Origin: a virus
IMG/VR virus record: IMGVR_UViG_3300032073_006283
Location: 1-40,781 of that record
Length of the DNA stretch: 40,781 bases
Direction: 5' to 3' (one strand)
Part shown: positions 19,601 through 39,402 of the stretch, piece by piece
How the letters are laid out: the number at the start of each line of letters is the position of its first letter
How positions within the stretch are numbered: the first letter of the stretch is position 1
Notes under the pieces: generated by a model
Database searches by the model: none
What the model saw: the letters and a program-made list of their open reading frames with translations, nothing else
What the model was told of the DNA's origin: nothing
Made by a program: the position numbers and the translations under genes

Positions 19601-22600
19601 CTAACGCAGATATAGCATATTTTGATACTAATGCAACCTACTCTAGTGGGGATTTGGTGCAATACAAGCCGTCTATACCTGGCACAAATGACGCCGCAAG
19701 CAGGCTATATATGGCTACAACTGCAACGGCCGCGGGTGAATCTCCTGGTTCTGCTTCTACTAAGTGGCAGCTACAACCAAATGTCACAATATATGATGAT
19801 AGAAATATTATATATAAAGATGAAATTATTGATAGAGTAAGAACTGATACTGTTTTAAATAATGGTACTGGTTCTCATACTTATAATTTAATTTATTATA
19901 GCGCTGTTAAAACATATTCTGTAGAGCAAGTAGTATTTTTTAGTAATAAATGTTATAAGTCATTGACTGATGGTAATAAGGGTAACGAGCCTTCCGTTGG
20001 TGGTTCAGCCCATTGGAAGCTTGTTCCTGATGTTGAGATTATTGAGGTTCATGTTCCTTCAAATGAAACATCAATAAGTGTTCAAGGTGATTCAAATGCT
20101 AGGGGTTATTTTTACTTAGAGTCTGTGGACCGCGCAGGAAATCGAAGTCGACTACATGCCGACCCAATGGCGCCTGGAAGTAAACAAGTTAAAAAAGATC
20201 TCGGTAAGCCTACAATAAGGGATGTAGAAAATTTTGAACAAGATTTAAGTAGCGAATTCCCTCACGCTTTAATGCTTCGTCCTGATGATCCGTTTACTAT
20301 CACTGGATCAACTTTATCTTGGCATGGCCATTATCTTTATAGCGCAGGCCAGGGCTATTTTATAGCAGCAGGAAGCATGGATCTTGAAGAAGAGTTGTTT
20401 GCCTCAAACGCGTCAAGGGATCTTGATTCGGTGGGCGGACCGTTCTCGAGTGATCGAACCGACCCTGAAGCAAGCCAGTTCATAAGGCATATATATTTCG
20501 ACAGAGCTTATGGTTTTAACACTAACCATGCAACTTCAGATAGGTTTTCTACTCACCAAGTGTTTGCTGGTACTAAAACGATTAGGGATATCGAAAGTGA
20601 CCAGGGACACGGAAGTGATTCTTCTGATTCTGGCATAGAGGAAAAAGACCGAGATACCAAAATTCAATACTCTGGCTATTATCTTTTTTGTACGGGTAAT
20701 CCTGCTTCTAATACTTATAATGTTTTAAAGGATGACGGTACTGAGGCGATTTCTTTGAGCTCCTCTGCTATTTCGGGAGGCGATATTGTTGACGGAGATA
20801 GAATTTCTGTGCTTAATGCAATTATTGATGATTTTAAAACGCCCGCAACTCCTGACACGCCTGGGAATACATCTATTAGAATCGTGCCTAAGGGCCAAGA
20901 GCCTACCGTTGGAAACCCTAATCAAAATGGCCTCGGAACTTGGGGTATGCATATTCAAAAAAGTTCTCAGCTTAAAACTGATTCTTCTGACAGCCTTTTT
21001 AGTAAAGACGAAAACAATCCCGGCACCTTTCAGATTCTTAGGATAGACCGAGTTCCTGACGGTTCTGGCGGTTTTGAATATTTTAAGGAAGTAAATTTTG
21101 AAACATTCAACAACGCGACCATAGGACAAGCCAATATAGCAAACGCTACTATCACCTCCGCTCAAGTTGCCGACCTTTCTGCAGACGTAATTACCGCTGG
21201 AATGATTGGGTCTCATAAAATTGAAATAGGAAACTCAATTAAGCCTGTCAGAAACGGTGGTGTTATGTCCGACGAGCAAAAATATATGCATCGAAAGAAA
21301 AATCCTGGTGCAAATTTTGATGTTGCTGATGGTAAAAAGTTTATTACGCAAGACGAGTTTGATTTGTTAGGCACAGCGCATCAAGCTTTATTTTTCGACA
21401 TGACTGAAGAGGTCTATTTCGAAGGAGGCAACCCGTTCTCTGTTGTGGGTTCTCAATATGAGTACGGCTCTATTACTAGCAAGGATTTTGGCCACGATAC
21501 AATGGGTCGCCCTGGATTTTATATCAGTGGCGATGGTCAGTTTGGTTTTCAAACAACACGAGGCGGATTATATTTAAGAGACGATGGAACTGGTACTCCT
21601 GCTGAACTTGTGCTTCGCGGCACCTTGGTACAGGAGGATGCTGATCCATTTGTTAAGATTGAAATGTCTGCAACTAGTCAGTTCGTGTCTTTCGATGAGC
21701 ACGCTGCTAATCATTATTACACTGGCAGTACCGATTCAGCTGTCCCTGACCCTCTCACTGTGTATGGAACTCAAACGCAAATAATTTCACCATCTGATGG
21801 CAGGATTACAATAGAGTATTCTATTCAAAACGCAAGGCATGTTGATGGTTCGCCTTATACCGCTAACGAACTGGAGCTTAGGATTTACCCTGATGGAGAT
21901 ATCGCTAAAGCTGTGAATATAGACGAGGTTGTTCAGCTTGTGGGAAATCAAACACTGGCTCACGAAAGAAAAGCGTGGGCAAGTGGAGGTTCCTACGATC
22001 AAGGGGAAATTGTTAAGCACAACGAAAAGTCTTGGGTTTCGAGTGCAGGCAGTAACACGAGTGAGCCTAACGCATCTTCTGCTAGTTGGACCGAGTCTGA
22101 TCATTATCAAAATCACGATCATTATATAAGCGATAAAGCTTTTGGAAGTTTAACCGCTGAAGAGCAGCAGGCTTATGGCCCGTATCAGGCTATATCTGAT
22201 AACAGAATGGGAATAATGGGGCTAAACGACCTATCTGATATCAATGAGGGCGGATCAATAACCTTAGATTTTCTTGGGGGAAAGGACGCGACTCCGTTAT
22301 TGGACGGATTGAATAAAGAGCGAATTCTTTTTACTGGCCAACCAATTACGACTCTTAATGATAATATCCTTGATAATAATGACGTTGCAAGAGACACTTT
22401 AGCGGAAATACGAGACGAACTTGAGGAGTTGGATATACTTGATGTTAATGAGGGTCTAACTGTTCCCAACAAGCTTATTCCTGTGGCAGATTCTTATACG
22501 GTTGAGTTTATGATTAAGCCTAGAACGCCTGCATGGAGTTCTAGTAGAACATATCTTGCAGGAGATCTGGCTAAATATAATGGTGTAGTTTTTCGAGCTC

Positions 22601-25600
22601 TGCAGGTTCATTCTTCCGATACAAGTGGGCAGATAGATTTTAGTTGGGATACTTCGGACTCTTATAGTGCTATAACTGACGAGTTTAACGCCATGATCGC
22701 TAGCCTTGATAGCGATGCAAGTTCTGCGACATTCGGCAGCTATCTAATGGGCCAAGGGGATTATTGGAGGATTATCCCTAACGAATTTTCATTGGATAGA
22801 AAAAAATTAACCATCACAAGAAAAGATAAACCTGCCAACCTTGCTTCAGTTATTCTTACTTCTGATGAAGGTAATGTTATACGGAACGGAGAAAATGACG
22901 CAACCATTAATATTTATCCTAAATTAAAATACGGAACTGAAGAATATGATCTCAATGCTCCTGTCGTTGGACTGGATTGGGTTGAATCCATGCGAGAGCA
23001 GTTAGCTATTTATGAAGGACCTCCGACAATAGATGACGGCCATAACGAACCTCAGACGACGCACTTTAAGTTGAGAAAGCAATGGCAAAATAATAGTTTT
23101 ACTTATGGGGTCAGCGATTCGGTTGTTGATGGCAAGAGTACTTTCTTTCTTGTAGATAGACGGGTTAATTATACTTTTGATCCAAGTATATCTATAGATG
23201 ATTGGGGTCAAGATATTATTGACGGTAAGATTAAAATTCTCGACGAGTTTGAGGTTGTTGATCTTAATGATGGAAAGCCCGCTATTTTAGTTGAAACAGT
23301 GAATGCTGATGATCAATTCATAACAAGGCTTCTGGATACTAAGGTTGCCGCACATGATGGATCGGCGCTAGGGCATACAGAAAGACACAAGCTTCAGCCT
23401 TTAAATAAAGCTATAGATTGCAAGGTGTCGGTATACGCTCCGACTGGAACTGGCAAGTCTCTTAACACTTATACTCATGATTTTAAATTGTTAATCTCTA
23501 ACGTTGCTAGGGGTTCGTACGCCACTGCGAGCGATGTATCTTTGGTTAGTTCTGATGGGCAAACTATTTATGCGAATAGCGCAGGCTCTGGGCAGGTGTT
23601 TGAGGTTAAGGATGGCTCTCGTGTTATTGGTAAAGCTAGGTTGGATTTAGATTTTGATAATTCACTGCATGTCAGCGAAATAGAAATTAGGGCGAGATTG
23701 CTACAGACATATAATCGAACCGTTGAGTCAGACAATTCAACAGTAGATGATAAGGCTGACTCTGTGTCGACTGGCAGCGGCGGCCCAAACAGGTGGGGCT
23801 TGGACGATGTGCTTGACGGTGTTAGCGAGGTTTATATAAACACTGCAGAACCTATTGATCACGCAATAAGATTAAATCTGTTGCGCAAAATGATTACTTA
23901 TTCTAGGCAATATGAAAAGATTGGAGACCTGGATCGAGCTGAAAATATTGTTCCGATGCAAATATTTCTTGGAACTGAAAATGTTTCTGATGAATTTCAT
24001 GAAGATGCAACTGCGAGCAGTAATACTCAGTTTGAGCTGATTCCTTCAGAAGGTTATGTTGTTGACGCAGCATTCCTGAATGGCGCTAATACTGGAAACT
24101 GCTATCCTAATTCAGGTAAAACAGAAGCAAGAAAGCTTATCGAGAGATACACGGTAGGTGCGCCTGTAAGCGGTTCGAGTAAGCCTCTTGTTTATCACCA
24201 AGGCTCTAAATGGTTTTTCTTCGAATCTTCCGTATATGTTCATGTTCAAAACGGCAGTATCATAACTGAAAGCCAATGGAATGCTCTTCCTGACGCTGAT
24301 CCCTCGGATGGCAGCGACTGGCAGGGCAACTATAATAATTATATTGATACAACCCAGGATATTGGCAAAGAATACATGTACTATATTCCCGTGTCTCAGT
24401 CTAGGATTGGCGCAGACAAAATAAAAATAAAAACTACTTATACAAAAGTAGGTCAGCCATTGGCCAGAATTGATGTTGGGGATAATACTCCGAATAGAAC
24501 ATATACTGACACAGAAGAACTTCCTGTTGTTGAGATAAACAATGGTTCGAGTACGGTTACTTTGTTTACCGATAATCTTAACGCAGAAATCCCCATAACA
24601 TCCGAAGGTGCAACTGAAGTTATTGTTACGGTAGATTCTTTAACTTCCACAATCGAAGCTTACATAGGTCTTGATCGGGCCTGTTTAGCTCCAACTTATA
24701 TTAAAATTAATGGGACTGATTTTACTCTTGATAACACCATAGGGGCCGCTAATGAAAATAAGGACAAAATTAGATGGAACGCAGACACTGCAATATCGAG
24801 TTATACTTCTCTAGGATGCTATTACGATACATACGGATATTCTCTCGATATTAGAAATTATGTTCGCGAAATGTCGTCAACATACGAAGGCGGAGGTTCC
24901 ATGGAGTCTACAATCACCAAGAGAACAGACGACGATATTCCTGCTGACCAGGACGTGAAGTATATATGCCTTTCCGAGCCTTCTGAGCAGCCTTCGTTGC
25001 CAGAAGGTTTTCACCTTGCTCTTTTTAATGCTGGTCACCAACTTGTTGCATATGCGGAGATGCCTGAACCCATGAAGCATGGAATTTTTATTGCTAATAC
25101 CGGAGATGTCGTTCCTGGTATTAGAAAGTACACAACCCAGCAGGCTGGCGAAGGCGGCCACGCAGGAACAAATCTAACTTCTGTTCTTGGCCTAGTCCCA
25201 ACAGTTCCTAACGATCCTGATTTAGACAATATACCTGACGCAGACGTGTTTAAAGTTAGTCATAAAGTTCTTTATGATTATGTTAATTCTGAATATGGAA
25301 ACCACAGTCAAAAAAGCATTGATGCTGCAATAACATTTTTTAAGGACGGCACCTCTTCTAATGAAAAATACTTTGATTTTGAAAGTCAGATATCAATCCC
25401 TATAGATATCACCGTATATGATACTAAGGACTATTGGAAAACTGACGGAGCTCAAAGTGAAACTGTTAATAAAATAATTACCGCAAGAAAGAGCGGCCCA
25501 ACTGGTGCAACAACAACATACCGAGGAACTTGGAAAGCGGATGAAACTTATTTTGGAACCAAAGAGCGCCGTGACATTGTATACTATGACGGAGACTATT

Positions 25601-28600
25601 GGTTGGCTAGGGAGGGTGCCGAAGAGTTTGCTTGGGGGGAAGATATTATTACCAGAAAAACAAACAATAGGACTGTTCGAAGCGTTACGTATCCTAATGG
25701 CAACTACGGCTTAGGTTTTACTTCTGAAATATACGAAGGAACTTATCCTCCTGGAAGCAATGAAAACGACACAAACGACTCTTTTGTTCCAAGCGGCAGC
25801 TCTAAAATCTGGGCTGAATTTGGTGCTCAGTTTGAATCTGTTTCTACCAACCTTCTTCTTGCTGACGATGTATTTGTCAAGAGAGGTATTGTTACTGGCA
25901 AAGACGATCCGTACCAGGGGTTTGTTGCGAGCCAGCTGTCTGATTCAAGTTTTACTCCTGGGGCTGGCGGAATAAAAGTTGATTTAAATTCATCAATAGG
26001 AGGTTCCTATCCTGTTGCCGTGATTGATCCTGGAACATCCTCTGGTTATGATGACAGGGAGGCTAATGCAAACCAGGCCGCATTAAGAAATATAACTGAA
26101 GTTAATGGGGTTACCTTGCAGTATTTTATTGACCCTAATGACCCTGATAATACTGATAAGTTCTCTTCCACGACAGCACAAGGTCTCGACCCCAAGCCTC
26201 ACGTTACCACTTGGAAGATTCCATACGTAAGAGAGCCTGGCTTTTATTTGGGTTATCACGATCTAAGACTGTGTCCTGATGGCATTTTTAATGACCCCAA
26301 CAACCCTATTACATATGCGGACGGCAGCACGTTTAATGTTCCTAACGCTTTGCCAATGCTTGAGTTGTATAGTCCTACCGGCAACTTTGTTCGTTGGAAC
26401 GGGTTAAGACTTGAGCTGTTTGGTTCCGTTATTAATGGCTCAATAAATGATAGCGGCACAATATCAATCGGGGTCGGAACGGATCATGCAATTAATCATG
26501 TTGGGTTTAGTAACGACAAGTTGCTTGGTGGTCAAATATTCTGCGGTGGCGGCGTTGCTAACTATATCACTGACACAAAAGATAATTTATGTTCCACTAT
26601 CACTGGTGGCGCACACAATAGTTTGTTTGGTAAGTTTTCTTTTATTGGTTCTGGTTATGGTAATTATATTTTAGATAATGATTTTTCATTTATTGGTTCT
26701 GGTTTTGCTAATGGTATATTAAATACAGATGGTAAAACAGATTCTTTTAATGCTATATTAAGTGGTAGAGCAAATAAGATTGTGAATTCTGATCATGGTG
26801 TTATTGGAACTGGGTTTGGTAATGTAATAAGTAAAAGTGACTACGGAAGCATTTTGAATGGACAAGGTAATGTCATAGGATCTGGTGATGTTAGTACTCA
26901 AGCGTGGAAGGATCAAACCTTGGGTAATAATGCTGCTAACGATACTTACGGAATGAACCCCGCCTCCGGGGCAGGCCACCTGCCTGCTTCTCCTTGGTCT
27001 TCTGAAGTTATTGTTGATATTAGCCGCGATTACAGAGCAAGACTCATTCAGTCAAACTATTTCGCTGAGTGGAATAGTGCATATCCCAGCACTCATGCTT
27101 GGTATGGCAATTTGTGGGGAACACACGAGGCGTATCAAATGGCAAATACAGCAACTAGCCCAATGTATAAACAAATGATTCTTGAGTTGGTTAACGGAGC
27201 TCAAAGAGCAAGCTTGACATTTCCAACCGATGCTTGGCTTGCTGATTATAGTGATCCAAATAAGGATCCTTACTTGGAAGCCGGAGATCATCCATACGCC
27301 GCCTTTAATCCATTTATACAGTTAACTTTACCCGCCAGCCAAAATAGGCTTCCTTTGGTGTTAAAGTGGAGGGTTGCTAATGGCGGTCGAGCCACTACTC
27401 CTATTTATAGATGCGATTCTTTTAATATTGCATCGCAAAATGGGGATACGAAGGATATTTATTTGGTGCCCCTGTGTGCCCCTGTTGGATGTTATTGGTT
27501 GGGGCAAATTCCTATAGAGGAAATTGAAACTGAACACTTGGGCTACTACGATGGGTTGCCAAACCTGCAGCAGTACGTTGATATTGGAAGTTCCGATTTG
27601 AATGGATATTTGGTTTATATTGATCGCAACTTTTTTCCTTGGATGTATGTTTATAGTAAGGCTGCCAACGGAGGGGAATGGATGCTTTTAAAAGTGGGTC
27701 TTGAAGATCGTTTAAGAGTGGTTGCCTTAGAGAGCGTTTCTAAAGCTTGGAGGGATGGCAAGAAAAGTTTGCCTGATGCCGGAGAAAACTGGGGTGACGC
27801 CACCTTGCCAGCTTACCCTGCGCCTAATTCTGGGAGGATGTATACAATTGCGGAAGCTCAAGACGCCGCGTTGAGCATTAGGGACAACGTTGCTAGTGTT
27901 GAAGGAGAAACGTGGACAAAAACTACAACCGCTCGTGCGCAGCTCGGAAATTGGGCATCGGGCATTGATAATACCGCTAAAACGCTATCAACCATGAAGC
28001 GCATGCTTAGCTTGGTTGATCTTGGCGACTCTGATAATCCTACTCAGCTGTTTTCTCATAACTCGATCATCGGAGGAAAAGGAAATTCTATTCATAATTC
28101 AAAAAACTCATTGATTGTTGCATCAACCTCAACTTCTTTAAGTGGTTTAAAAAACGCTGTTGTGGGAGGCGCAGGAAATATTGTGGACAACGAAGGAGGA
28201 TCTTCCTTAAGCTTATACTCTGCTGTATCTGCTTTAGGGTCTAGTAATACAATAGCGTGGGCAGACTCAGCTAGCAACAAAGATGCTCAGCTGACCGTGC
28301 TAGGTTCTGATAATGTATTATACAATACAACGTCTTCGGTTTTCTTAGGCAATGCAAATAAAGTTATTGGCTCAAGCGAAACTTCTAGTGATAATTATAA
28401 TAATACCGGAAATGTTGTAGCCCTTAACATATTTGGTAATAACAACGAACTTGTTGGCAACTATAGCGCAAATACATGCGCCATATTCGGTTCAAACTTT
28501 AAGTTAACAACCGTAGAACAAATGCAAAACGCGTTCTACTTTGGAAACCCTTATCTCGCCGGATCTAGTACAGACGCTTTGACTAGGCTGTTCTTTGCTG

Positions 28601-28950
28601 CTGATGGCGGGGCTTACTTTACTGGCGACGTTATTTCGTTTGCATTGTCAGACGAAAAATACAAAGAAAATATATCATTAATATCTGAACCTATGAATAA
28701 GGTCAAGAAGCTTAGAGGCGTTGCTTTCGACTGGAAAGACAATCAAAGCATTTACTCTGGAAGAGACGTTGGATTGATAGCTCAAGAGGTTGAGCTTGTT
28801 TTGCCTGAGGTTGTCTCTTCAAGAGAGTCTGGCAGTAAGGCTGTTAAATACGAAAAGATTGTTCCTCTTTTAGTGGAATGTATAAAATCTTTAGGCGAAA
28901 AAATTGAGTCTCTTGAGTCAACCATTAACGAGCTTAAGAAGAACTCTTGA
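16672..28950 (+). CDS. Giant tail fibre/adhesin with gpJ C-terminal elements and S74 chaperone
   Basis: A 4092-aa protein. In order: Ig-like N-terminal regions; an FN3-like domain (~878-925, PSEPVGLRIGG then FQLNWGAP); aromatic carbohydrate-binding-like modules (~983-1033, ~1075-1115, ~1769-1805, ~1955-1995, ~2950-2985); a gpJ C-terminal-type helix (~1483-1513, TIGQANIANATITSAQVADL); a divergent third copy of the DGSDWQGNY module (~2520-2558); beta-roll repeats (~3317-3403 and ~3798-3945); and a peptidase S74 intramolecular chaperone from ~3989, with Ser3993 and Lys3998 spaced as in endosialidase chaperones. Such chaperones fold the trimer and then cut themselves off. The final residues form a coiled coil. 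The start overlaps the gpJ stop by 8 nt and is preceded by aggggg. It probably binds a surface glycan; the target is unknown. Confidence 0.85.
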   Translation: MSRINILATFKIRSLTDSYFLVGTSETGDFTRNLGTGEQLYAGDITPLLEVGANGLPVNDGKTLLANHIEDGVSVSVPVSLGEEFGDFIIRLYAENEFGIRSSFVEIEQNILPADISGTFRFQSLDVGEIESAKPSYRSSVKRRAKKTSNLYIKESEFIGKSFQLQFSLKANARLAGNKAGRVSPSNPMFSHFEVEFYQSWDGTTADDSGLTTKLNIPNDWLYSEERLGNYTDFSIYLNKQSIVDLYRHNNIADQDREIILKIVGYDVFYNIDLDANGDPKDDHKFTAISVLENDKPRLDSADFDLFGQSLEVSVQSSDPDLDHGQIKLLKYRSDASGGTYSLQSSERVLVRSITTAIQEWHSDTHPNYYKYIIEVHDSYGFGSFYAVSNGRIKRDVSGHKEFLTEETALAETQVWSSYLQIRNLRVVESGVTQGENKGAFNVNWEIEDSSGNTVDITKDLDGNVAYKIKSNYTVNIVEGFTASLVCPGDYTDDPSSFPIRDAQDLDYLIPSSGGAINGEPIDATVGSSTIDKDGVKIKAQNKLQVFSESSFVLTRGQNQNLYRSWFNDLNKNKRRSVDGTFDKVLHDPFRVVYDASYGGTITDYDDASKERHVDAQRKVKVRVELINKNSETVHLIESTGYNAPPVFQLGGSRENSATNTQSLNDQGNSKNDNTSGGSNHSAVDVQAGQARFELPPNERIQYVEIFRRPHVKPDLDAAGSETDPITCYSEVFQDNSNPQQGGHFYNKQSTDFYVLPDDDNSQQKMLFNYGINPDNGEQQYGGGDGFYVRRVSSLGNSSKQPIVNGINIGSTENNTSYQDFPPMLCENGLAKDTVYDYLIVPFDLFGSGQAEFFEDVKPVSPHRYSQDERGAIGTLDFDAPSEPVGLRIGGANKTFQLNWGAPIGTSDLDYYNLYYILDNRDHTQMFHGLQGSDPITKGTNTTGGNVQEDIINFSTEGYVYGESDFLEQDFNFKDATNADIAYFDTNATYSSGDLVQYKPSIPGTNDAASRLYMATTATAAGESPGSASTKWQLQPNVTIYDDRNIIYKDEIIDRVRTDTVLNNGTGSHTYNLIYYSAVKTYSVEQVVFFSNKCYKSLTDGNKGNEPSVGGSAHWKLVPDVEIIEVHVPSNETSISVQGDSNARGYFYLESVDRAGNRSRLHADPMAPGSKQVKKDLGKPTIRDVENFEQDLSSEFPHALMLRPDDPFTITGSTLSWHGHYLYSAGQGYFIAAGSMDLEEELFASNASRDLDSVGGPFSSDRTDPEASQFIRHIYFDRAYGFNTNHATSDRFSTHQVFAGTKTIRDIESDQGHGSDSSDSGIEEKDRDTKIQYSGYYLFCTGNPASNTYNVLKDDGTEAISLSSSAISGGDIVDGDRISVLNAIIDDFKTPATPDTPGNTSIRIVPKGQEPTVGNPNQNGLGTWGMHIQKSSQLKTDSSDSLFSKDENNPGTFQILRIDRVPDGSGGFEYFKEVNFETFNNATIGQANIANATITSAQVADLSADVITAGMIGSHKIEIGNSIKPVRNGGVMSDEQKYMHRKKNPGANFDVADGKKFITQDEFDLLGTAHQALFFDMTEEVYFEGGNPFSVVGSQYEYGSITSKDFGHDTMGRPGFYISGDGQFGFQTTRGGLYLRDDGTGTPAELVLRGTLVQEDADPFVKIEMSATSQFVSFDEHAANHYYTGSTDSAVPDPLTVYGTQTQIISPSDGRITIEYSIQNARHVDGSPYTANELELRIYPDGDIAKAVNIDEVVQLVGNQTLAHERKAWASGGSYDQGEIVKHNEKSWVSSAGSNTSEPNASSASWTESDHYQNHDHYISDKAFGSLTAEEQQAYGPYQAISDNRMGIMGLNDLSDINEGGSITLDFLGGKDATPLLDGLNKERILFTGQPITTLNDNILDNNDVARDTLAEIRDELEELDILDVNEGLTVPNKLIPVADSYTVEFMIKPRTPAWSSSRTYLAGDLAKYNGVVFRALQVHSSDTSGQIDFSWDTSDSYSAITDEFNAMIASLDSDASSATFGSYLMGQGDYWRIIPNEFSLDRKKLTITRKDKPANLASVILTSDEGNVIRNGENDATINIYPKLKYGTEEYDLNAPVVGLDWVESMREQLAIYEGPPTIDDGHNEPQTTHFKLRKQWQNNSFTYGVSDSVVDGKSTFFLVDRRVNYTFDPSISIDDWGQDIIDGKIKILDEFEVVDLNDGKPAILVETVNADDQFITRLLDTKVAAHDGSALGHTERHKLQPLNKAIDCKVSVYAPTGTGKSLNTYTHDFKLLISNVARGSYATASDVSLVSSDGQTIYANSAGSGQVFEVKDGSRVIGKARLDLDFDNSLHVSEIEIRARLLQTYNRTVESDNSTVDDKADSVSTGSGGPNRWGLDDVLDGVSEVYINTAEPIDHAIRLNLLRKMITYSRQYEKIGDLDRAENIVPMQIFLGTENVSDEFHEDATASSNTQFELIPSEGYVVDAAFLNGANTGNCYPNSGKTEARKLIERYTVGAPVSGSSKPLVYHQGSKWFFFESSVYVHVQNGSIITESQWNALPDADPSDGSDWQGNYNNYIDTTQDIGKEYMYYIPVSQSRIGADKIKIKTTYTKVGQPLARIDVGDNTPNRTYTDTEELPVVEINNGSSTVTLFTDNLNAEIPITSEGATEVIVTVDSLTSTIEAYIGLDRACLAPTYIKINGTDFTLDNTIGAANENKDKIRWNADTAISSYTSLGCYYDTYGYSLDIRNYVREMSSTYEGGGSMESTITKRTDDDIPADQDVKYICLSEPSEQPSLPEGFHLALFNAGHQLVAYAEMPEPMKHGIFIANTGDVVPGIRKYTTQQAGEGGHAGTNLTSVLGLVPTVPNDPDLDNIPDADVFKVSHKVLYDYVNSEYGNHSQKSIDAAITFFKDGTSSNEKYFDFESQISIPIDITVYDTKDYWKTDGAQSETVNKIITARKSGPTGATTTYRGTWKADETYFGTKERRDIVYYDGDYWLAREGAEEFAWGEDIITRKTNNRTVRSVTYPNGNYGLGFTSEIYEGTYPPGSNENDTNDSFVPSGSSKIWAEFGAQFESVSTNLLLADDVFVKRGIVTGKDDPYQGFVASQLSDSSFTPGAGGIKVDLNSSIGGSYPVAVIDPGTSSGYDDREANANQAALRNITEVNGVTLQYFIDPNDPDNTDKFSSTTAQGLDPKPHVTTWKIPYVREPGFYLGYHDLRLCPDGIFNDPNNPITYADGSTFNVPNALPMLELYSPTGNFVRWNGLRLELFGSVINGSINDSGTISIGVGTDHAINHVGFSNDKLLGGQIFCGGGVANYITDTKDNLCSTITGGAHNSLFGKFSFIGSGYGNYILDNDFSFIGSGFANGILNTDGKTDSFNAILSGRANKIVNSDHGVIGTGFGNVISKSDYGSILNGQGNVIGSGDVSTQAWKDQTLGNNAANDTYGMNPASGAGHLPASPWSSEVIVDISRDYRARLIQSNYFAEWNSAYPSTHAWYGNLWGTHEAYQMANTATSPMYKQMILELVNGAQRASLTFPTDAWLADYSDPNKDPYLEAGDHPYAAFNPFIQLTLPASQNRLPLVLKWRVANGGRATTPIYRCDSFNIASQNGDTKDIYLVPLCAPVGCYWLGQIPIEEIETEHLGYYDGLPNLQQYVDIGSSDLNGYLVYIDRNFFPWMYVYSKAANGGEWMLLKVGLEDRLRVVALESVSKAWRDGKKSLPDAGENWGDATLPAYPAPNSGRMYTIAEAQDAALSIRDNVASVEGETWTKTTTARAQLGNWASGIDNTAKTLSTMKRMLSLVDLGDSDNPTQLFSHNSIIGGKGNSIHNSKNSLIVASTSTSLSGLKNAVVGGAGNIVDNEGGSSLSLYSAVSALGSSNTIAWADSASNKDAQLTVLGSDNVLYNTTSSVFLGNANKVIGSSETSSDNYNNTGNVVALNIFGNNNELVGNYSANTCAIFGSNFKLTTVEQMQNAFYFGNPYLAGSSTDALTRLFFAADGGAYFTGDVISFALSDEKYKENISLISEPMNKVKKLRGVAFDWKDNQSIYSGRDVGLIAQEVELVLPEVVSSRESGSKAVKYEKIVPLLVECIKSLGEKIESLESTINELKKNS
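24231..24345 (+). repeat. Divergent third copy of the DGSDW tail module
   Basis: Residues ~2520-2558 of the giant fibre include ITESQWNALPDADPSDGSDW, which aligns with the IIYRAQYLQLASVDPGDGSDW segment of copy A (3991-4113). The similarity is at protein level; the DNA is clearly diverged except near the DGSDW codons. Confidence 0.6.
26590..26880 (+). repeat. Beta-roll repeat block 1 in the giant fibre
   Basis: Short degenerate repeats of the form F-x-I-G-S-G-x-x-N-x-I are spaced about 13-16 residues apart (SFIGSGYGNYI, SFIGSGFANGI, GVIGTGFGNVI, SILNGQGNVI). This is the pattern of stacked beta-roll or triple-beta-helix shafts. The DNA of the block is notably AT-rich. Confidence 0.75.
28060..28510 (+). 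repeat. Beta-roll repeat block 2 in the giant fibre
   Basis: A second set of shaft repeats (SIIGGKGNSI, AVVGGAGNIV, TVLGSDNVL, VFLGNANKV, NIFGNNNEL, AIFGSNFKL) lies directly before the S74 chaperone. This placement is usual for fibres whose trimeric shaft is folded by that chaperone. Confidence 0.75.
28636..28950 (+). other. Peptidase S74 intramolecular chaperone domain with predicted autocleavage site
   Basis: This segment encodes residues 3989-4092 of the giant fibre. SDEKYKENI carries Ser3993 and Lys3998, matching the Ser-Lys dyad spacing (n, n+5) of endosialidase-type chaperones; GLIAQEVE and a C-terminal coiled coil are also typical. Cleavage is predicted just before Ser3993 and would release about 100 residues. 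Confidence 0.85.
28918..28950. other. Tail-to-tail overlap of the two convergent gene series
   Basis: The last 33 nt of the giant fibre (stop TGA, 28948-28950) and of the minus-strand 252-aa gene (stop at 28918-28920) are the same DNA read on opposite strands. I see no GC-rich hairpin with a T-run here, so if a terminator exists it must lie inside one of the coding regions. Confidence 0.9.
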
Positions 28951-29676
28951 TTCTGACGCAGGAATGTCTTCCCATCTTTCCCAGCCGCTAATATCTTCGT
29001 TTCTATATTTTTCTTCTCTCCACCAATCCCTTAAGACGTGTTTGAAATCGTCAAATGATGCGCAGTTTAGTTTGTTTTGTGCTGCAGCACTAAGTATCGA
29101 GTGTGGCGTTAATCCAGAATTTTGAGCCATTTGGGTTTCCTTGGGCTTGTTGTTTTTGTTGATTTCATCATCTCCAACGATATGAACATTTAAAAAGTTT
29201 CTTACGCATCGAACAAAAGCTCTGTTGCACGCTATCGTTTCAAGGAAAATTTGACCGAAATCGCTGGTGTTGTGGATTGTTGCGTTGGCCATGTCTTGAA
29301 ACACTACTTGGTTGCCTCCTGTTTCATAGTTTGGTATGAATGTGATTCTGCAAATGACCGCCACATGATCATGCTCGCATTTAACTGTTTCATAATGAAT
29401 GTCCGAAAAGCCTCTTAACCTTGCGAGTTCTTTTATGCCGCTAAGTTTGATAAGAAGCTGGTGATCTTTTAGGCCTTCGATGGAATTCGGCATGTCCATT
29501 TTTCTCATTTTGAACCAATCTCTATTCGGAAATAGATGTGAGGGATCGATCATTGCTCGCCAGTTAACCGAGCCGTCTGTATTAAATTGATAGTCTGCGT
29601 TTTCTAAGAGCCCGTGTTCGTTTCTTAAATATACATTTGGGCCATAGTCTTTCTTGGATTTAGTTTTTGTTGTCAT
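28918..29676 (-). CDS. Possible Rad52/Erf-like ssDNA annealing protein
   Basis: A 252-aa soluble protein. The central region (~75-170) has the general pattern of single-strand annealing proteins: a hydrophobic strand set (HDHVAVICRITF), then ATIHNTSDFGQIFLETIACN and the helix NRAFVRCVRNFLNVHIVGDD, in which a charged, Arg-containing helix precedes a DE-type turn. The resemblance is weak and the family assignment is inference. The C-terminal ~70 residues (SILSAAAQNKLNC, then a Trp-rich DWWREEKYRNEDISGWERW) look like a small separate domain. The N-terminus is Lys-rich. It is the last gene of the minus-strand series, overlaps the previous gene by 17 nt, and its 3' end overlaps the giant fibre gene by 33 nt. 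A recombination role would fit the nearby SSB-like and NrdA genes. Confidence 0.4.
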   Translation of the reverse strand: MTTKTKSKKDYGPNVYLRNEHGLLENADYQFNTDGSVNWRAMIDPSHLFPNRDWFKMRKMDMPNSIEGLKDHQLLIKLSGIKELARLRGFSDIHYETVKCEHDHVAVICRITFIPNYETGGNQVVFQDMANATIHNTSDFGQIFLETIACNRAFVRCVRNFLNVHIVGDDEINKNNKPKETQMAQNSGLTPHSILSAAAQNKLNCASFDDFKHVLRDWWREEKYRNEDISGWERWEDIPASESRVLLKLVNG

Positions 29677-30835
29677 TTTTAAAAATTTTGTAATAGTCTA
29701 TTTCTTGATAAAAAACTTCGTTGTTGATTATTTTATCTATGTTCTGTTTTTCTATTCCTAAATCGAGTGCCGACTTGCATGGGTAAATTTTATTGTCCTT
29801 GATAATGTTGAGACTGGATTCATAGTATGTACAATTATCGCATAATTCCTCTGGATTGTCAAGATCTTTTTTTGATAGCTTTTCATGTTGATAAATATTT
29901 TGATGAAAGAATTTTAATCTAATTGATGATATATTTTCTCCTGCATAAAGTAATTTAAATTTTATTCCTGTTGATATAATTTTATGAATAAATTCTTCTG
30001 ATGTATTGTCTGATATATATAAATATATTCTCTTGATGTTGTGTTTGTGTTTTATTAAGATGTCTAGTTCTATTTCCTTATCTGAGAATATGGTACATTT
30101 GTATTGCGAAAGCCAAGTCTCTACGTTATACGGCGCATCTGTATAATCTAGCCTTAGGTTTACCAAGCTTCCTTCGGATATTTGTATGTTGCTTGGCGGA
30201 CCACACTCGGGAACAACGTCAATAACTTGAGTGTGAAAAGACCTGCCGAGGTGAACTGGCTTGTTTTGGTCATAGGGGTTGTTGAGGTTTAGTAATCTCA
30301 AACATTCGCTTGCCACATAGTCGGGAAATATTTCATCTACTCTTTTAGGGTCTTCTTTAATGGCAAAAGAAGGTTTTCTATATGAGTAATCTGGCGATAT
30401 AAGCGACTGTATTCTTTCGTCTCCCCAGTATGGCTTGCAGGTGTTTGCGATTACTGGACCGTATAGCGCTACCACGGGCGTTCTGTAAAAGGCTGATACG
30501 TGTGTCGAGAAAGAGTCGTTGCCGAGGTGTAGTATTGCGTTTTTGAGGATAAAAAAAGTTTGTCTTAATTGCGTTTTGCCGAGAAGACTTTCTGTCCCTT
30601 TAATTTTTGGATCGTTTTCTTCTCCTATTTGAAATATTTTTATGTTTTGCTTTTCTAGTTCGGGTTTTATTAGTTTAATTACATTTTCGAAATAAGAATA
30701 ATTCTTTGACGCCATGCCTGAGCCTCCGTGAATAGTTATGTATTTCTCCGCCTCCATTGGGTAGAATAAGGGTTCTATGTGCGGCTGAGATATTTTGCAG
30801 CCCGCAGTTAATGCGTAGTTTTCTATTAGGTGCAT
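29660..30835 (-). CDS. GT9-type glycosyltransferase, C-terminal half, with a cysteine-containing C-terminal extension
   Basis: A 391-aa protein. Residues ~1-185 match the C-terminal Rossmann half of heptosyltransferase-like GT9 enzymes (YITIHGGSGMASKNYSYFEN, then HLGNDSFSTHVSAFYRTPVV and ALYGP), which binds the sugar nucleotide. The N-terminal half of the fold is missing and is found at the end of the upstream gene. The ATG lies 10 nt inside that gene (ATGCACCTAA), one base back in frame, so the two halves could arise by stop-start coupling, by frameshifting, or from an old indel. The rest (~190-391) is not recognised; it has a C-x2-C pair near 332-335 and another Cys near 354 (YPCKSALDLG), a pattern reminiscent of SPASM-type metal sites, though weakly. 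It overlaps the downstream gene by 17 nt. Confidence 0.75.
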   Translation of the reverse strand: MHLIENYALTAGCKISQPHIEPLFYPMEAEKYITIHGGSGMASKNYSYFENVIKLIKPELEKQNIKIFQIGEENDPKIKGTESLLGKTQLRQTFFILKNAILHLGNDSFSTHVSAFYRTPVVALYGPVIANTCKPYWGDERIQSLISPDYSYRKPSFAIKEDPKRVDEIFPDYVASECLRLLNLNNPYDQNKPVHLGRSFHTQVIDVVPECGPPSNIQISEGSLVNLRLDYTDAPYNVETWLSQYKCTIFSDKEIELDILIKHKHNIKRIYLYISDNTSEEFIHKIISTGIKFKLLYAGENISSIRLKFFHQNIYQHEKLSKKDLDNPEELCDNCTYYESSLNIIKDNKIYPCKSALDLGIEKQNIDKIINNEVFYQEIDYYKIFKNDNKN

Positions 30836-32778
30836 AGGTCTAGTGAAATTTTATCCAAACCGTTTCTGGTATAGTTTAAAACTCTTTGGTTGTTGATATG
30901 TAGCAGGATTGCTATGTCAAATACGCCCTCTGAGTCATCTCTGTCGGGCCTGCCGCTAAAACCTTCAAGGCATATTGCGTCATGGCAATCTGGCGTGAAT
31001 GGCAAAACCTTATGTATATATGGGTTTCCGTCGAGTACTTGATGATATTGCTCTTGGCATATAAAATATATGTTGTAATCCTTATATGTGTTTTTTAAGT
31101 CTGGTAATAGGCTTGTTGCCATAAATATGTCTCCTATGCTTTTAGGGAGGACTAGCGCTAACCTTCTGCCCTTGTCTGAGTCGTTCAGGTATTGAGATAT
31201 GTCTGTTTCTTTTTTTTCGTTAGATTCTGTTTGTCGCTTTGCGTTGTTTTTTAATGCTTGAAATATTTTTTTTCTAGATGTTCCGTTTTGAATTTTTTTT
31301 ATAAGAAACTCAAATACCTCTGAGTGTTTTCTGAGCTGTACTTTCAATAGGTTGTTGTATGTTTTTAATATAAACTCTTCGTCATTACAGTCCTGAGGCA
31401 TGGGGTAGTTGAGATTTGGTTTTAAATATTCCGCGTCAATCTTAAACTTGTCTGTGACGTCCATGTTGTCTATAATTTTCATTAGCTTTTCGGCCGAACT
31501 CTCAATTGAGTAGTTTTTTATGACAAAGTCCCTGGCGGTTTTACCGAAGTAAGATTTTTTTGAAGAATTCATCTTATAGGCTTTGGTGAGCTTGCTGGAT
31601 ATACTGTGCGGGCATGTGCTTGCCTTTACGAATTGTGTTCCGGGTTCTCTGTATTCGTTCCATGAAAGGGGCATTCCTCCTGAGGCCTCAGAAGAGCAGT
31701 CTGTGCCGCAGCTGTAGTCGGTGACCAACGTAACTAGCTCGCAGAGTTTTGCTTCTTGTATGGGCAACTCTTGACCTCCTGAAGTAAATGGATGGCAGTA
31801 TACATCCATTAAGTTATATATTTCGTTTAGTTGTTTTTCGCTAGGGCCCACGTGAACACTTGACGTATTTAATGTTTGTTTTTCTCCGCATAGCGGGCAG
31901 TCTTGTTTCTCTCCGTCTTTTTTGTTATCCGACTGAAAGGGTTGAACTACATAATCCTTGCATTTTTCACAAAAATAAGTTGTTAGTATGTCGTTGTTAT
32001 TTATTTCTTTTTCCTTTATAAGTTTAGGTATATCCCATCCTTCTTGCCAATTTGTGTGCAGTAATAGTTTGGCTCTGCATTTTGGGTTGCTGTTTTTGAA
32101 TTTTTTAAATCCATCTAGCAGGTTGGGCACACTTTTTCTTAACTGATTTCTGAATACAAAGCCTATAATAAAGTCGTCTTTATTTATTTTATGCCTGGCT
32201 CTTAATTCTTCCCTTGGCTCTTTGTTGAGTTTAAAGAAGTTTTCATGGTCAATTGGACCATGTATACATTCTGAGTTTGTAACCCCTGCGTCTGAGAGTT
32301 CTTTTTGGGCAAAGTTAGACCATGTGATGAATCTATCTGTGTTTCTCGCAGTAGAAGCTGTCGTATCTAATATTGGGGTTGAGTCTAGGGTTACCCATAG
32401 TATTGTGTTTAGGTGTGACCACCAAGGCTTTTCGCAGAAACCGTTAAATGCCCATATGTCTTCAGACCCTATGTATATATCAGGCTTTTCTTCTAGGATG
32501 ATTTCATCAATTCTTAAGTGTCCGTATCCAGCTCGGCTTTTTATAGAGTTGTTTTCATCACATTTTTTTTCTATCTGTTTATCATCTGGGAAGCTACCTC
32601 TGCATTTCCACGGAAAAAGTTCTAGCGCTGGAGAGTTTTCTTTAACCCCGTTGGCAACCTCAACTATGTCATATTTTCCTGTTTTAAATAAATAGGATAA
32701 AATGTTTTTAGTGTTCTTGCCAAACCCAGTAAATACCCTAGAGCAATTGCTGTGGTATAGAATTTTTTTTTTAGACAT
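30826..32778 (-). CDS. GT4 glycosyltransferase with inserted zinc ribbon, fused to GT9 N-terminal half
   Basis: A 650-aa protein. Residues ~1-430 are a GT-B, GT4-like enzyme: N-terminal SNCSRVFTGFGKNT, a GFVFRNQLRKSVPNLLDGF strand-helix, and the EX7E-like region with GGQELPIQEAKLCE. Within it, at ~268-300, is an insertion with two CxxC pairs (C270/C273 and C294/C297), a likely zinc ribbon. After a linker, ~535-650 resemble the first Rossmann half of GT9 enzymes (RLALVLPKSIGDIFMATSLL, then NPYIHKVLPF). The ORF ends in LDKISLDLCT, just where a GT9 would enter its second domain, which is supplied by the overlapping downstream gene. The start overlaps the upstream stop by 1 nt (TAATG). Substrates are unknown; host surface glycan, virion protein or other acceptors are all possible. 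Confidence 0.75.
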   Translation of the reverse strand: MSKKKILYHSNCSRVFTGFGKNTKNILSYLFKTGKYDIVEVANGVKENSPALELFPWKCRGSFPDDKQIEKKCDENNSIKSRAGYGHLRIDEIILEEKPDIYIGSEDIWAFNGFCEKPWWSHLNTILWVTLDSTPILDTTASTARNTDRFITWSNFAQKELSDAGVTNSECIHGPIDHENFFKLNKEPREELRARHKINKDDFIIGFVFRNQLRKSVPNLLDGFKKFKNSNPKCRAKLLLHTNWQEGWDIPKLIKEKEINNNDILTTYFCEKCKDYVVQPFQSDNKKDGEKQDCPLCGEKQTLNTSSVHVGPSEKQLNEIYNLMDVYCHPFTSGGQELPIQEAKLCELVTLVTDYSCGTDCSSEASGGMPLSWNEYREPGTQFVKASTCPHSISSKLTKAYKMNSSKKSYFGKTARDFVIKNYSIESSAEKLMKIIDNMDVTDKFKIDAEYLKPNLNYPMPQDCNDEEFILKTYNNLLKVQLRKHSEVFEFLIKKIQNGTSRKKIFQALKNNAKRQTESNEKKETDISQYLNDSDKGRRLALVLPKSIGDIFMATSLLPDLKNTYKDYNIYFICQEQYHQVLDGNPYIHKVLPFTPDCHDAICLEGFSGRPDRDDSEGVFDIAILLHINNQRVLNYTRNGLDKISLDLCT

Positions 32779-33314
32779 TAGAATGGAGCTTCGTTGCTAT
32801 GTTTAGCTTGAGGCTTCGGTTCTTCTGTCTGTTTTTTTCTGTTGTCTGAAAATGTAAATAGCTCATCAAAATACCTGCTGAATAACATTTTTAAGGCTTC
32901 GATTTCGCCCGGCTCAAGGGGAAGCCTGAATGTCTGACTGCCGTTTCTGGTTAAAACTAGCCCGAATGCGGGTATTACTTGTGATCCGTCTTTTGTTTTT
33001 TGACTTTTATCCCACGGGGTAAGTTTTATAGAGGTTGAGTTTTCGTCAAACGTGTGGTAGGTGCTATATTCATATCGATTGTTGAACGCCGATATAATAG
33101 CCCCTATCTCAAACTCATTAAATTTGATGTTAATATTTTTTTCTGGGTCTTCTCTATTTTTTGAGAAGTTTGCTGTCTTTGAGTTGCTGTCCCAGCTAAA
33201 CTGTTGTATTGCGCTGCAATATATCGAAGGCACTCCTTTTGTGCCCGGGCCGACGCTAAAGTTGAATGCGCAGCCGCTATTTTTACTGTTTGGTTTATAA
33301 AGGCTTAGGTTCAT
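32778..33314 (-). CDS. Probable phage single-stranded DNA-binding protein
   Basis: A 178-aa soluble protein. It opens with MNLSLYKPNSKNSGCAF, a start I associate with a phage ssDNA-binding protein family, and continues with alternating beta strands with exposed aromatic and basic residues (IQQFSWDS, ANFSKNREDP, INIKFNEFEIGAIISAF). A helix near 135-150 precedes a low-complexity charged linker (KKQTEEPKPQAKHS), and the protein ends in EAPF, similar to the acidic-x-P-F tail by which bacterial SSBs recruit partners. I do not recognise a standard OB-fold SSB signature, so the family is inferred. The gene overlaps the protease gene by 20 nt and shares a TAATG junction with the GT4 gene, so it sits in one transcription unit with both. 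Confidence 0.5.
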   Translation of the reverse strand: MNLSLYKPNSKNSGCAFNFSVGPGTKGVPSIYCSAIQQFSWDSNSKTANFSKNREDPEKNINIKFNEFEIGAIISAFNNRYEYSTYHTFDENSTSIKLTPWDKSQKTKDGSQVIPAFGLVLTRNGSQTFRLPLEPGEIEALKMLFSRYFDELFTFSDNRKKQTEEPKPQAKHSNEAPF

Positions 33315-37642: not shown

Positions 37643-38036
37643 AGCAATCTTGAAACTGCATGTACTTTGCGCTATCTGTTACTACTACGGATTTTTCGCA
37701 CACCTTGCAGTGTGGAAATGTCCATATAAACCCTTGGGACGTTAGTGCGTAAGCGTCGTTTTCGTGCCAAAAGACATTTAGCTCTGGCAGGTCTGAAAGG
37801 GTGGATAGCGCAAATACGTTTTTACAGTGAATCCATAAGGAGTTGTGGAAACGCATAAGAAAATCTAGGTCTATTTCGTGCTCAGGGTTGTCGTGTCCCA
37901 AATAAAGTCCATCTTGGTACCATACGTCAATCTCAACGTCAAAACCTGCATGTATAGCTTCCTCTATGTAGCTAGGTTGGTTTTCTTTGCTTTTGTTAGC
38001 CCCTTTGTAGTTCCCTCTGTGGGCGATTAGTTTCAT
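37614..38036 (-). CDS. Short GDPD-like phosphodiesterase domain protein
   Basis: A 140-aa protein with the N-terminal catalytic signature of the glycerophosphodiester phosphodiesterase/PI-PLC-like superfamily: His6-Arg7 (LIAHRGN), Glu35-x-Asp37 (VEIDVW) and His48 (LGHDNP). Canonical GDPD proteins are about 240 residues or more with a full TIM barrel, so this is a compact relative; short relatives with WIHCKN and FWHENDAY segments occur beside nucleotidyltransferases in surface-polysaccharide loci, from memory. It may cleave or sense a glycerophospho-type substituent, but the substrate is unknown. The start is fixed by HRG at position 6. It overlaps the HAD-nucleotidyltransferase gene by 41 nt and the WavE-like gene by 29 nt. 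Confidence 0.75.
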   Translation of the reverse strand: MKLIAHRGNYKGANKSKENQPSYIEEAIHAGFDVEIDVWYQDGLYLGHDNPEHEIDLDFLMRFHNSLWIHCKNVFALSTLSDLPELNVFWHENDAYALTSQGFIWTFPHCKVCEKSVVVTDSAKYMQFQDCYGVCADKLI

Positions 38037-39402
38037 GGTTTTGTAAAAAATAAGCTAGGTCTTCCGGGGTTCCTAAGCCCCACATTGATTCCTCGCTAAT
38101 ATTGAAGATTTTGTATTTTCCTCCATTATATATACACTGATTGTATACTGGGCAAACGTAGAACTCATTGTTTGTTCTTATGTTTTTGCTGATCATTTCC
38201 TCAGCCCCTGATACGTAGTCCGAGCCTTTCTTGAAGTAATAAACTCCTACAGTAGCGTGATCGCTTATGACTTTTTTTTCTGCGACCTCTGTTACGAATC
38301 CATTATCGCAAAGCTTTGCATAGCTCCACTTTGGGTGGCAAGACGGAAATGTTAGTATTCCTCCGTCAATTTCATCTCCGATCATTGAGTACATAAACTG
38401 GTTGCTGTCCCAATCTAAGTATTGATCAGAGTTTGCTATCAATAGCGGTTGGTCGTTGTTGATTAAGTCTTTAGCTAGAAGCGTGGTGCATGCTGCGCCC
38501 TCAGTCATTCCGTCAACTTGTATAATTTTGCAGTTTGGGGCTATTAAGTTTAAGGTGTGTTGCAGTGAATATTTTTCGTAATGCGATTTTTGGACTATAA
38601 ATATATAGTTTGCGTTTATATTTAGACTATCCACAACTGTCTGGATCATTGGTTTGCCCTTCACGTCAATCAAGGGCTTCGGGAATGAGTAGCCTGCTTG
38701 CTCAAACCTGCTTCCTGCCCCCGCCATTGGAACAAGAATGTTCATGCCCTCGCCTTCCCATTTTGTTTTTTCGTACGGTTTGTTTTCTATTTTATTTATA
38801 TAGTTCATAATTTTTTCATAAGTTAAGTCTTCTGGGTCTTTGATAGCCCCAAGGTGTGCTCCTGAATTTAGTACAGCCTCCCTTCCCTTGTTGGAATCTT
38901 CTAGGATTAGCGTGTGTCTAGATGGTATTCCTGACTGTATCATAATTCTATAATACATTTCGGGGTTAGGCTTTGGCCTCAGCACGTCTTGGTTTGACAT
39001 GATGTGCCAAAAGTAATGAAGAATTTTTTTGTGGTGAAGAGCCGTAATGATACTCTCTCTTACGGAATTTGAGGCTACCGACATCTCTATGCCTTTTTCT
39101 TGGAGCCTGCGTAATATGGAGTTGAGTTTTTCGTCTCTTTCGTAGGTCTCCATCATGGCAAGAGTAATTCTTTGTTTCTTTTTCCATATTTCGTCATACG
39201 CCTCTTTGGGTAAACCTTTGTTTTTCGTTAGCAACTCAAGCTTTCTTGTCGTAGGTAGTCCGTCGTATGTTGATAAATGTTCTTCTTTTGAGATGCTGTA
39301 TTCTGGGCAAACGTTATTTATTGCTCCGTTGAACGCCTCGAAATGTAATTCTCTTGAATTTATTAAAACTCCGTCTAAGTCAAATATGATTTGTTTGATC
39401 AT
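37996..39402 (-). CDS. HAD phosphatase fused to sugar nucleotidyltransferase
   Basis: A 468-aa bifunctional protein. Residues ~1-205 are a HAD hydrolase of the phosphoglucomutase/phosphoglycolate phosphatase type: Asp8 and Asp10 (FDLDGVL), a SVASNS motif near 112-117, a conserved Lys in RPKPNPEMY (~148) and LEDSNKG (~171-177). Residues ~220-455 are a nucleotidyltransferase: VPMAGAGSRF near the start (nucleotide-binding loop), FPKPLI, and NSDQYLD as the metal-binding Asp-containing motif. It would plausibly dephosphorylate a sugar phosphate or polyol phosphate and activate one with an NTP. An internal ATG opens the second domain at 38745, preceded by ggaaggcgaggg, so a separate shorter product is possible. 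It overlaps the next upstream gene by 4 nt and the GDPD-like gene by 41 nt. Confidence 0.85.
   Translation of the reverse strand: MIKQIIFDLDGVLINSRELHFEAFNGAINNVCPEYSISKEEHLSTYDGLPTTRKLELLTKNKGLPKEAYDEIWKKKQRITLAMMETYERDEKLNSILRRLQEKGIEMSVASNSVRESIITALHHKKILHYFWHIMSNQDVLRPKPNPEMYYRIMIQSGIPSRHTLILEDSNKGREAVLNSGAHLGAIKDPEDLTYEKIMNYINKIENKPYEKTKWEGEGMNILVPMAGAGSRFEQAGYSFPKPLIDVKGKPMIQTVVDSLNINANYIFIVQKSHYEKYSLQHTLNLIAPNCKIIQVDGMTEGAACTTLLAKDLINNDQPLLIANSDQYLDWDSNQFMYSMIGDEIDGGILTFPSCHPKWSYAKLCDNGFVTEVAEKKVISDHATVGVYYFKKGSDYVSGAEEMISKNIRTNNEFYVCPVYNQCIYNGGKYKIFNISEESMWGLGTPEDLAYFLQNHETNRPQRELQRG

Follow-up and report, generated by a model that had tools for sequence, protein, structure and literature searches.

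In the glycosyltransferase (GT) pairs Alg14/Alg13 and EpsE/EpsF, the acceptor and the donor halves of a GT-B enzyme reside on two chains, an ancient split that was followed by later re-fusions (PMC8993221). Here, we describe a comparable division in a 40.8-kb virus record of IMG/VR (IMGVR_UViG_3300032073_006283), analysed over all of its 40,781 nucleotides (nt) and hereafter called the window, where two overlapping open reading frames (ORFs) on the minus strand, ORF1 and ORF2, are predicted to carry the two halves of one GT9 glycosyltransferase. Alg14/Alg13 and EpsE/EpsF belong to GT1, are related to GT28/MurG and likewise keep the acceptor and the nucleotide-sugar halves on separate chains in an ancient and lasting split. 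In contrast to them, the pair found here is GT9 by sequence and structure and not of the GT1/GT28 (MurG-like) lineage, its N-terminal half lies behind a GT4 domain and a linker, and it occurs in phage contigs. Whereas re-fusions were reported for Alg13/Alg14, no re-fused form was present among the loci examined here.

The described GT9 enzymes WaaC, WaaF and a Veillonella protein (3tov) are single chains. By sequence, the halves correspond to the N and C parts of both WaaF and 3tov, and a joined model is closest to GT9, but here two chains are involved, the N half being fused to a GT4 enzyme and the C half followed by an extension. The GT4 domain of ORF1 matches known GT4 enzymes, including a putative transferase of Chlorella virus NY2A (3oy2) and the phage family PHROG 2170, to which ORF1 adds a four-cysteine insert, a DUF4214-like linker and the C-terminal GT9 half. 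The junction shares the overlap or very short spacing of stop-start (termination-reinitiation) coupled pairs, among which subunits of heteromeric complexes are over-represented (PMC10666635), but it falls between the halves of one fold and not between whole subunits. In the literature searched, we found nothing on a split glycosyltransferase of phages, nor on DUF4214 together with phage transferases.

Conservation of the split

We consider it quite probable that ORF1 and ORF2 encode an obligate two-chain phage GT9, in which the acceptor half is tethered to a GT4 enzyme and both chains are made by stop-start coupled translation. The basis is domain content, a conserved split, co-occurrence of the halves, purifying selection and fold compatibility; we infer that the chains physically assemble, are made by coupled translation and have enzymatic activity, and the acceptor and the order in which sugars are added are inferences as well. 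A preliminary description of this DNA had located both ORFs and read them as one GT9 divided between the genes, the first half of it attached to a GT4. The coordinates, lengths and junction were all confirmed on the window sequence, and the split is supported by domain matches and by relatives.

Is the break particular to this one record? Relatives were collected in several scans seeded with each whole protein, with the N-terminal GT9 half (GT9N) alone and with the core of the C-terminal half (GT9C) without its start, giving 305 loci, many of them from the same contigs, and 171 non-identical pairs, mostly from IMG/VR phage contigs. A GT4-GT9N gene with a separate GT9C gene was found in 293 loci. 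GT9 as one continuous chain was not found: hmmsearch detected no single ORF with both halves among the 305 loci and the window, and there was none in the 171 pairs, each scan having supplied its best 80 loci, so that a rare fused form could escape. One scan used a pattern placed on the beginning of ORF2, which favoured separate starts, while later scans were free of such bias. Seeds made of GT9N only or of the GT9C core only still recovered the other half in the adjacent position, except in locus L208 and in loci cut by contig ends. A separate contig scan gave 13 loci; in L133 a contig end cuts the sequence short, L144 is truncated, and the other 11, where both parts could be read, were all split.

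The comparison of homologues that the preliminary description had proposed thus placed the break at a homologous site, and relatives with an uninterrupted frame were sought and none found. In the nearest relatives, with ORF1 identities of 76% and 55-52%, the break, the start codon and the stop position are the same, and the break remains at the homologous residue down to ~30-40% identity. The ORF2 start occupies the same homologous site throughout, with an ATG in 167 of the 171 pairs. Because none of the relatives found has the two halves in a single frame, the break is, as judged from the sequences, far beyond chance. The same comparison argues that the split GT9 is ancient and conserved and neither a sequencing error nor a frameshift. 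The two-chain GT9 is real and conserved, apparently undescribed, and frequent among uncultured phages. Binning placed several relatives with metagenome-assembled genomes (MAGs) of Bacteroidota and others, a weak hint to the host; 587 sampled genomes from two phyla gave no strong GT9C profile match beyond two MAGs already known to carry the pair.

Of ten large phage contigs (132-211 kb), nine had the ORF2 homologue as their sole PF01075 match, and the tenth had none. The median ratio of nonsynonymous to synonymous substitution rates (dN/dS), taken from 24 close, partly overlapping comparisons, was 0.030 for GT4, 0.024 for GT9N, 0.043 for GT9C and 0.062 for the extension.

Domains and fold of the two chains

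ORF2 matches the GT9 family PF01075 above its curated cut-off (33.2 bits against 22) at model positions 166-222 of 247, and its amino acids (aa) 75-144 correspond to positions 231-301 of the NCBIfam model for heptosyltransferase II. In ORF1, aa 540-594 correspond to positions 2-56 of the heptosyltransferase I model, a weak NCBIfam match (E 0.003). A GT9N profile finds the N-termini of solved GT9 proteins (3tov 8-70, E 2e-4; WaaF 2-57) and a GT9C profile the opposite ends of the same proteins (WaaF 241-343; 3tov 247-339), the membership of GT9N in GT9 being a matter of profile-level matches only. Both motifs of GT9, the N-terminal G-D and the C-terminal D..H, are present across the split chains. 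D550 of ORF1 is conserved in 167 of 171 pairs, and in ORF2 a lysine or arginine at position 44 is kept in 155, D107 in 161 and H112 in 154. From general knowledge of WaaC and WaaF, we take D550 to be catalytic and the ORF2 residues to bind the nucleotide sugar.

The assignment of the first part of ORF1 to GT4 follows from both a curated sequence cut-off (PF00534, 31.3 bits against 26.4) and a GT-B fold. The linker between GT4 and GT9N gave no Pfam match to PF13946 (DUF4214) in ORF1 of the window itself; in the relative L008 this family scored above its cut-off (25.3 bits against 23.2) and in other relatives more weakly. The resemblance of the linker to DUF4214, visible in relatives, is a detail beyond the preliminary description. 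In a collection of 50,697 phage records, ORF1 matched only two Synechococcus phages, at 23-25% identity over the GT4 part, and ORF2 had no DNA or protein match. No credible sequence match in the PDB was obtained for the ORF2 extension. In one relative, L145 from a proteobacterial MAG, ORF2 is much shorter.

Modelled alone with AlphaFold2, ORF1 reached a predicted local distance difference test (pLDDT) score of 89.6, and residues 630-636 and 644-650 fell below 50 when ORF2 was not included; in the model, such a low-confidence tail is as expected for an unpartnered end. We further modelled the relative L115, whose genes are in one phase, as one chain with the stop read through, using 50 aligned rows (pLDDT 88.5, predicted template-modelling (TM) score, pTM, 0.81). 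The best 30 PDB matches of this joined chain were all GT9 (3tov, WaaF, WaaC, TibC) over 331-357 columns, with TM-scores (TMt) of 0.46-0.61, ~0.6 for the single-chain WaaC, WaaF and 3tov, and a root-mean-square deviation (rmsd) of 6-7 Å. By this prediction the joined halves give a GT9-type GT-B fold, which speaks for compatibility rather than assembly in trans because the tether favours pairing.

Spacing of the genes and competing accounts

In the 171 pairs, ORF2 begins between -17 and +683 nt from the ORF1 stop, with all three phases represented. The two genes overlap in 95 pairs and follow each other at 0 to +12 nt in 54, so that 149 of the 171 fall within -17 to +12 nt of the stop; the spacing is +25 nt in two more pairs and +222 nt or more in the remaining 20. 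The overlap seen in the window, ATGCACCTAA, is nearly identical in most relatives of the -10 spacing class. In experiments, genes had to overlap or lie very close together for coupling to occur, and pairs of this kind frequently code for subunits of the same complex (PMC10666635). Because of this need, coupled termination and re-initiation is likely for the pairs at ~-17 to +12 nt. Overlap alone is not proof of coupling, and tight packing is general on this strand.

In the mechanism that we propose, the GT9 active site would be common to two chains: the C-terminus of the GT4 protein would contribute the acceptor-side Rossmann half with the catalytic-type D550, and the separate ORF2 protein would be the nucleotide-sugar-binding half (K44, D107, H112). 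With the ORF2 start atop the ORF1 stop, ribosomes ending ORF1 could initiate ORF2 immediately, and this coupling would lead to near-equal amounts of the chains and to assembly beside the nascent partner. The complex would hold two transferase centres, GT4 and GT9, and would be suited to the sequential addition of two sugars to one acceptor.

The preliminary description had offered three mechanisms, of which two chains made by coupled translation is the one we retain, while a -1 frameshift product as the conserved mechanism and a recent indel fell to the comparison of relatives. That programmed -1 frameshifting joins ORF1 and ORF2 into a GT4-GT9 chain of ~1030 aa, at least in the lineage of the window, strikes us as very improbable. 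In its favour, ORF2 is in frame -1 relative to ORF1, the two share a short open window and the nearest relatives conserve the overlap well, but over the 171 pairs the frames of ORF2 relative to ORF1 divide into 88, 69 and 14, with phase changes numbering at least 31 on a FastTree tree built without the junction (a fast tree, on which 31 is the minimum). In 28 of the 171 pairs there is no shared open window, and a frameshift product is impossible there because the open frames do not overlap. Slippery heptamers were found in 4 of 84 overlapping -1-phased pairs, and the 25-nt shared open window here holds none, as the preliminary description had already reported. Neither a slippery heptamer nor a conserved phase with a shared window, the two marks of programmed -1 frameshifting, is thus a property of the family. 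Whole genes stand between the halves in several lineages (DUF6165, ~125-140 aa; an Anp1-like transferase, 213 aa; an HNH-like protein, 84 aa), and a conserved ATG begins ORF2 at the same site. Because spacing and phase vary, genes intervene and the ORF2 start stays at the homologous residue, the pair points to two chains and not to a frameshift product. The odds that an intact GT4-GT9 fusion was disrupted by a recent indel or a sequencing error are close to nil: only the window's own two frames meeting at a 10-nt overlap would suggest it, whereas the same break, with the same start codon and stop position, recurs in other contigs at 52-76% ORF1 identity and throughout the 171 pairs. L155 (756-2725) offers a contrast to the conserved GT9 break: there, two overlapping frames divide the GT4 domain itself, which is probably a real indel.

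A smaller but appreciable chance goes to the account that two chains are right and ORF2 is translated independently, the overlap reflecting only tight gene packing. The neighbours overlap too, ORF2 with a 252-aa gene by 17 nt and ORF1 with a 178-aa gene by 1 nt, and some relatives are spaced by +222 to +683 nt; on the other hand, 149 of 171 pairs are at or near distances where coupling works (PMC10666635), and the ORF2 of the window has no Shine-Dalgarno-like site upstream, yet most genes on the strand lack one. It seems unlikely that the GT9 halves are no longer an enzyme, with GT9N as a vestigial binding tail and ORF2 as an independent or regulatory protein. The lower conservation of ORF2 compared with ORF1 (39-40% against 52-55% in the same relatives), the loss of motif residues in a few lineages and the absence of a nearby ORF2 in L208 would agree with such a decay, but the median dN/dS is lower in GT9N than in any other part, D550 and D107 are kept in 167 and 161 of 171 pairs, and the halves co-occur almost always.

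Several observations weigh against the obligate, coupled two-chain enzyme that we favour. L208, on a 36.8-kb contig, carries an ORF1 with a full GT9N and lacks ORF2 both downstream and in the rest of the sequence. Translational coupling is not a universal feature, because 20 pairs are widely spaced (+222 nt or more). Part of the family may be inactive, because some lineages have lost D107, K44 or the GD motif. In the EX7E motif of the GT4 domain, the second glutamate (E342) is kept in 168 of 171 pairs and an alignment by eye puts an invariant glycine (G334) in the place of the first, with a glutamate three residues on, so that the canonical first glutamate appears to be replaced. In the joined model, the tethered chain favours pairing, and TM-scores of ~0.6 with an rmsd of ~6 Å leave the predicted domain orientation loose.

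Features, neighbouring genes and meaning

Table 1. Features of the gene pair in the window, and genes found between the halves in related loci
Feature	Coordinates	Strand	Basis
ORF1: GT4 - DUF4214-like linker - GT9 N-terminal half, 650 aa	30826..32778	-	Pfam, NCBIfam, AlphaFold2 model m07ee37c1570f, mean pLDDT 89.6
GT4 domain, aa 1-437, GT-B fold	31468..32778	-	PF00534; best solved matches GT4-type, 3oy2 TMt 0.78
Zinc-ribbon-like C2-C2 insert in GT4 (C270, C273, C294, C297)	31888..31971	-	each of the four cysteines conserved in 160-166 of 171 relatives
Helical linker, aa 442-521, DUF4214-like	31216..31455	-	helices in model; PF13946 matches in relatives
GT9 N-terminal half, aa 538-650, SIGD motif and D550	30829..31167	-	NCBIfam, profile match, residue conservation
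Stop-start overlap ATGCACCTAA, 10 nt	30826..30835	-	ORF2 start in -1 frame within final ORF1 codons
ORF2: GT9 C-terminal half and extension, 391 aa	29660..30835	-	Pfam, NCBIfam, profile matches
GT9 C-terminal half, aa 1-190 of ORF2, K44, D107, H112	30266..30835	-	PF01075; WaaF 241-343, E 3e-8; conservation
ORF2 C-terminal extension, aa 191-391	29663..30265	-	no Pfam match; alternating strand/helix in model of relative
Inserted gene, DUF6165	L041:3620-3997
Inserted gene, Anp1-like	L116:5910-6551
Inserted gene, HNH-like	L048:3744-3998

The pair is flanked by two genes without a Pfam or PHROG match (28918-29676 and 32778-33314, minus strand), which also flank it in L005, L007 and L008. Two genes upstream lies a gene for a trypsin-like serine protease (PF13365; 33295-34218, minus strand), and similar genes occur near L005 and L208. 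Farther on, a fusion gene encodes a HAD (haloacid dehalogenase) phosphatase and a sugar nucleotidyltransferase (37996-39402, minus strand); it is a possible source of the donor sugar nucleotide, fitting a sugar-nucleotide theme while naming no sugar. Convergent with the transferase operon is a gene on the plus strand (16672-28950) for a 4092-aa protein, the C-terminus of which, read by eye, looks like the intramolecular chaperone of phage tail proteins.

Why would such a split be kept? It is a doubtful, speculative possibility that the split itself is useful, with a fixed GT4-GT9N platform onto which ORF2 would dock as an exchangeable or separately dosed donor subunit. That ORF2 diverges faster, has a variable extension and is in some lineages separated from ORF1 by inserted genes fits this possibility without testing it. 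If true, a change of one subunit could swap the second sugar, or give GT4 alone versus GT4 plus GT9.

If the coupled two-chain reading is true, the pair would represent, besides Alg13/Alg14, a further enzyme family whose GT-B fold is stably divided into acceptor and donor halves, with the added twist that one GT9 half rides on another transferase. This would make it testable why a two-domain enzyme stays split, and would warn annotators that such ORF pairs are one enzyme and not two broken genes. As phage glycosylation genes, they may serve the modification of the virion or of the host surface.

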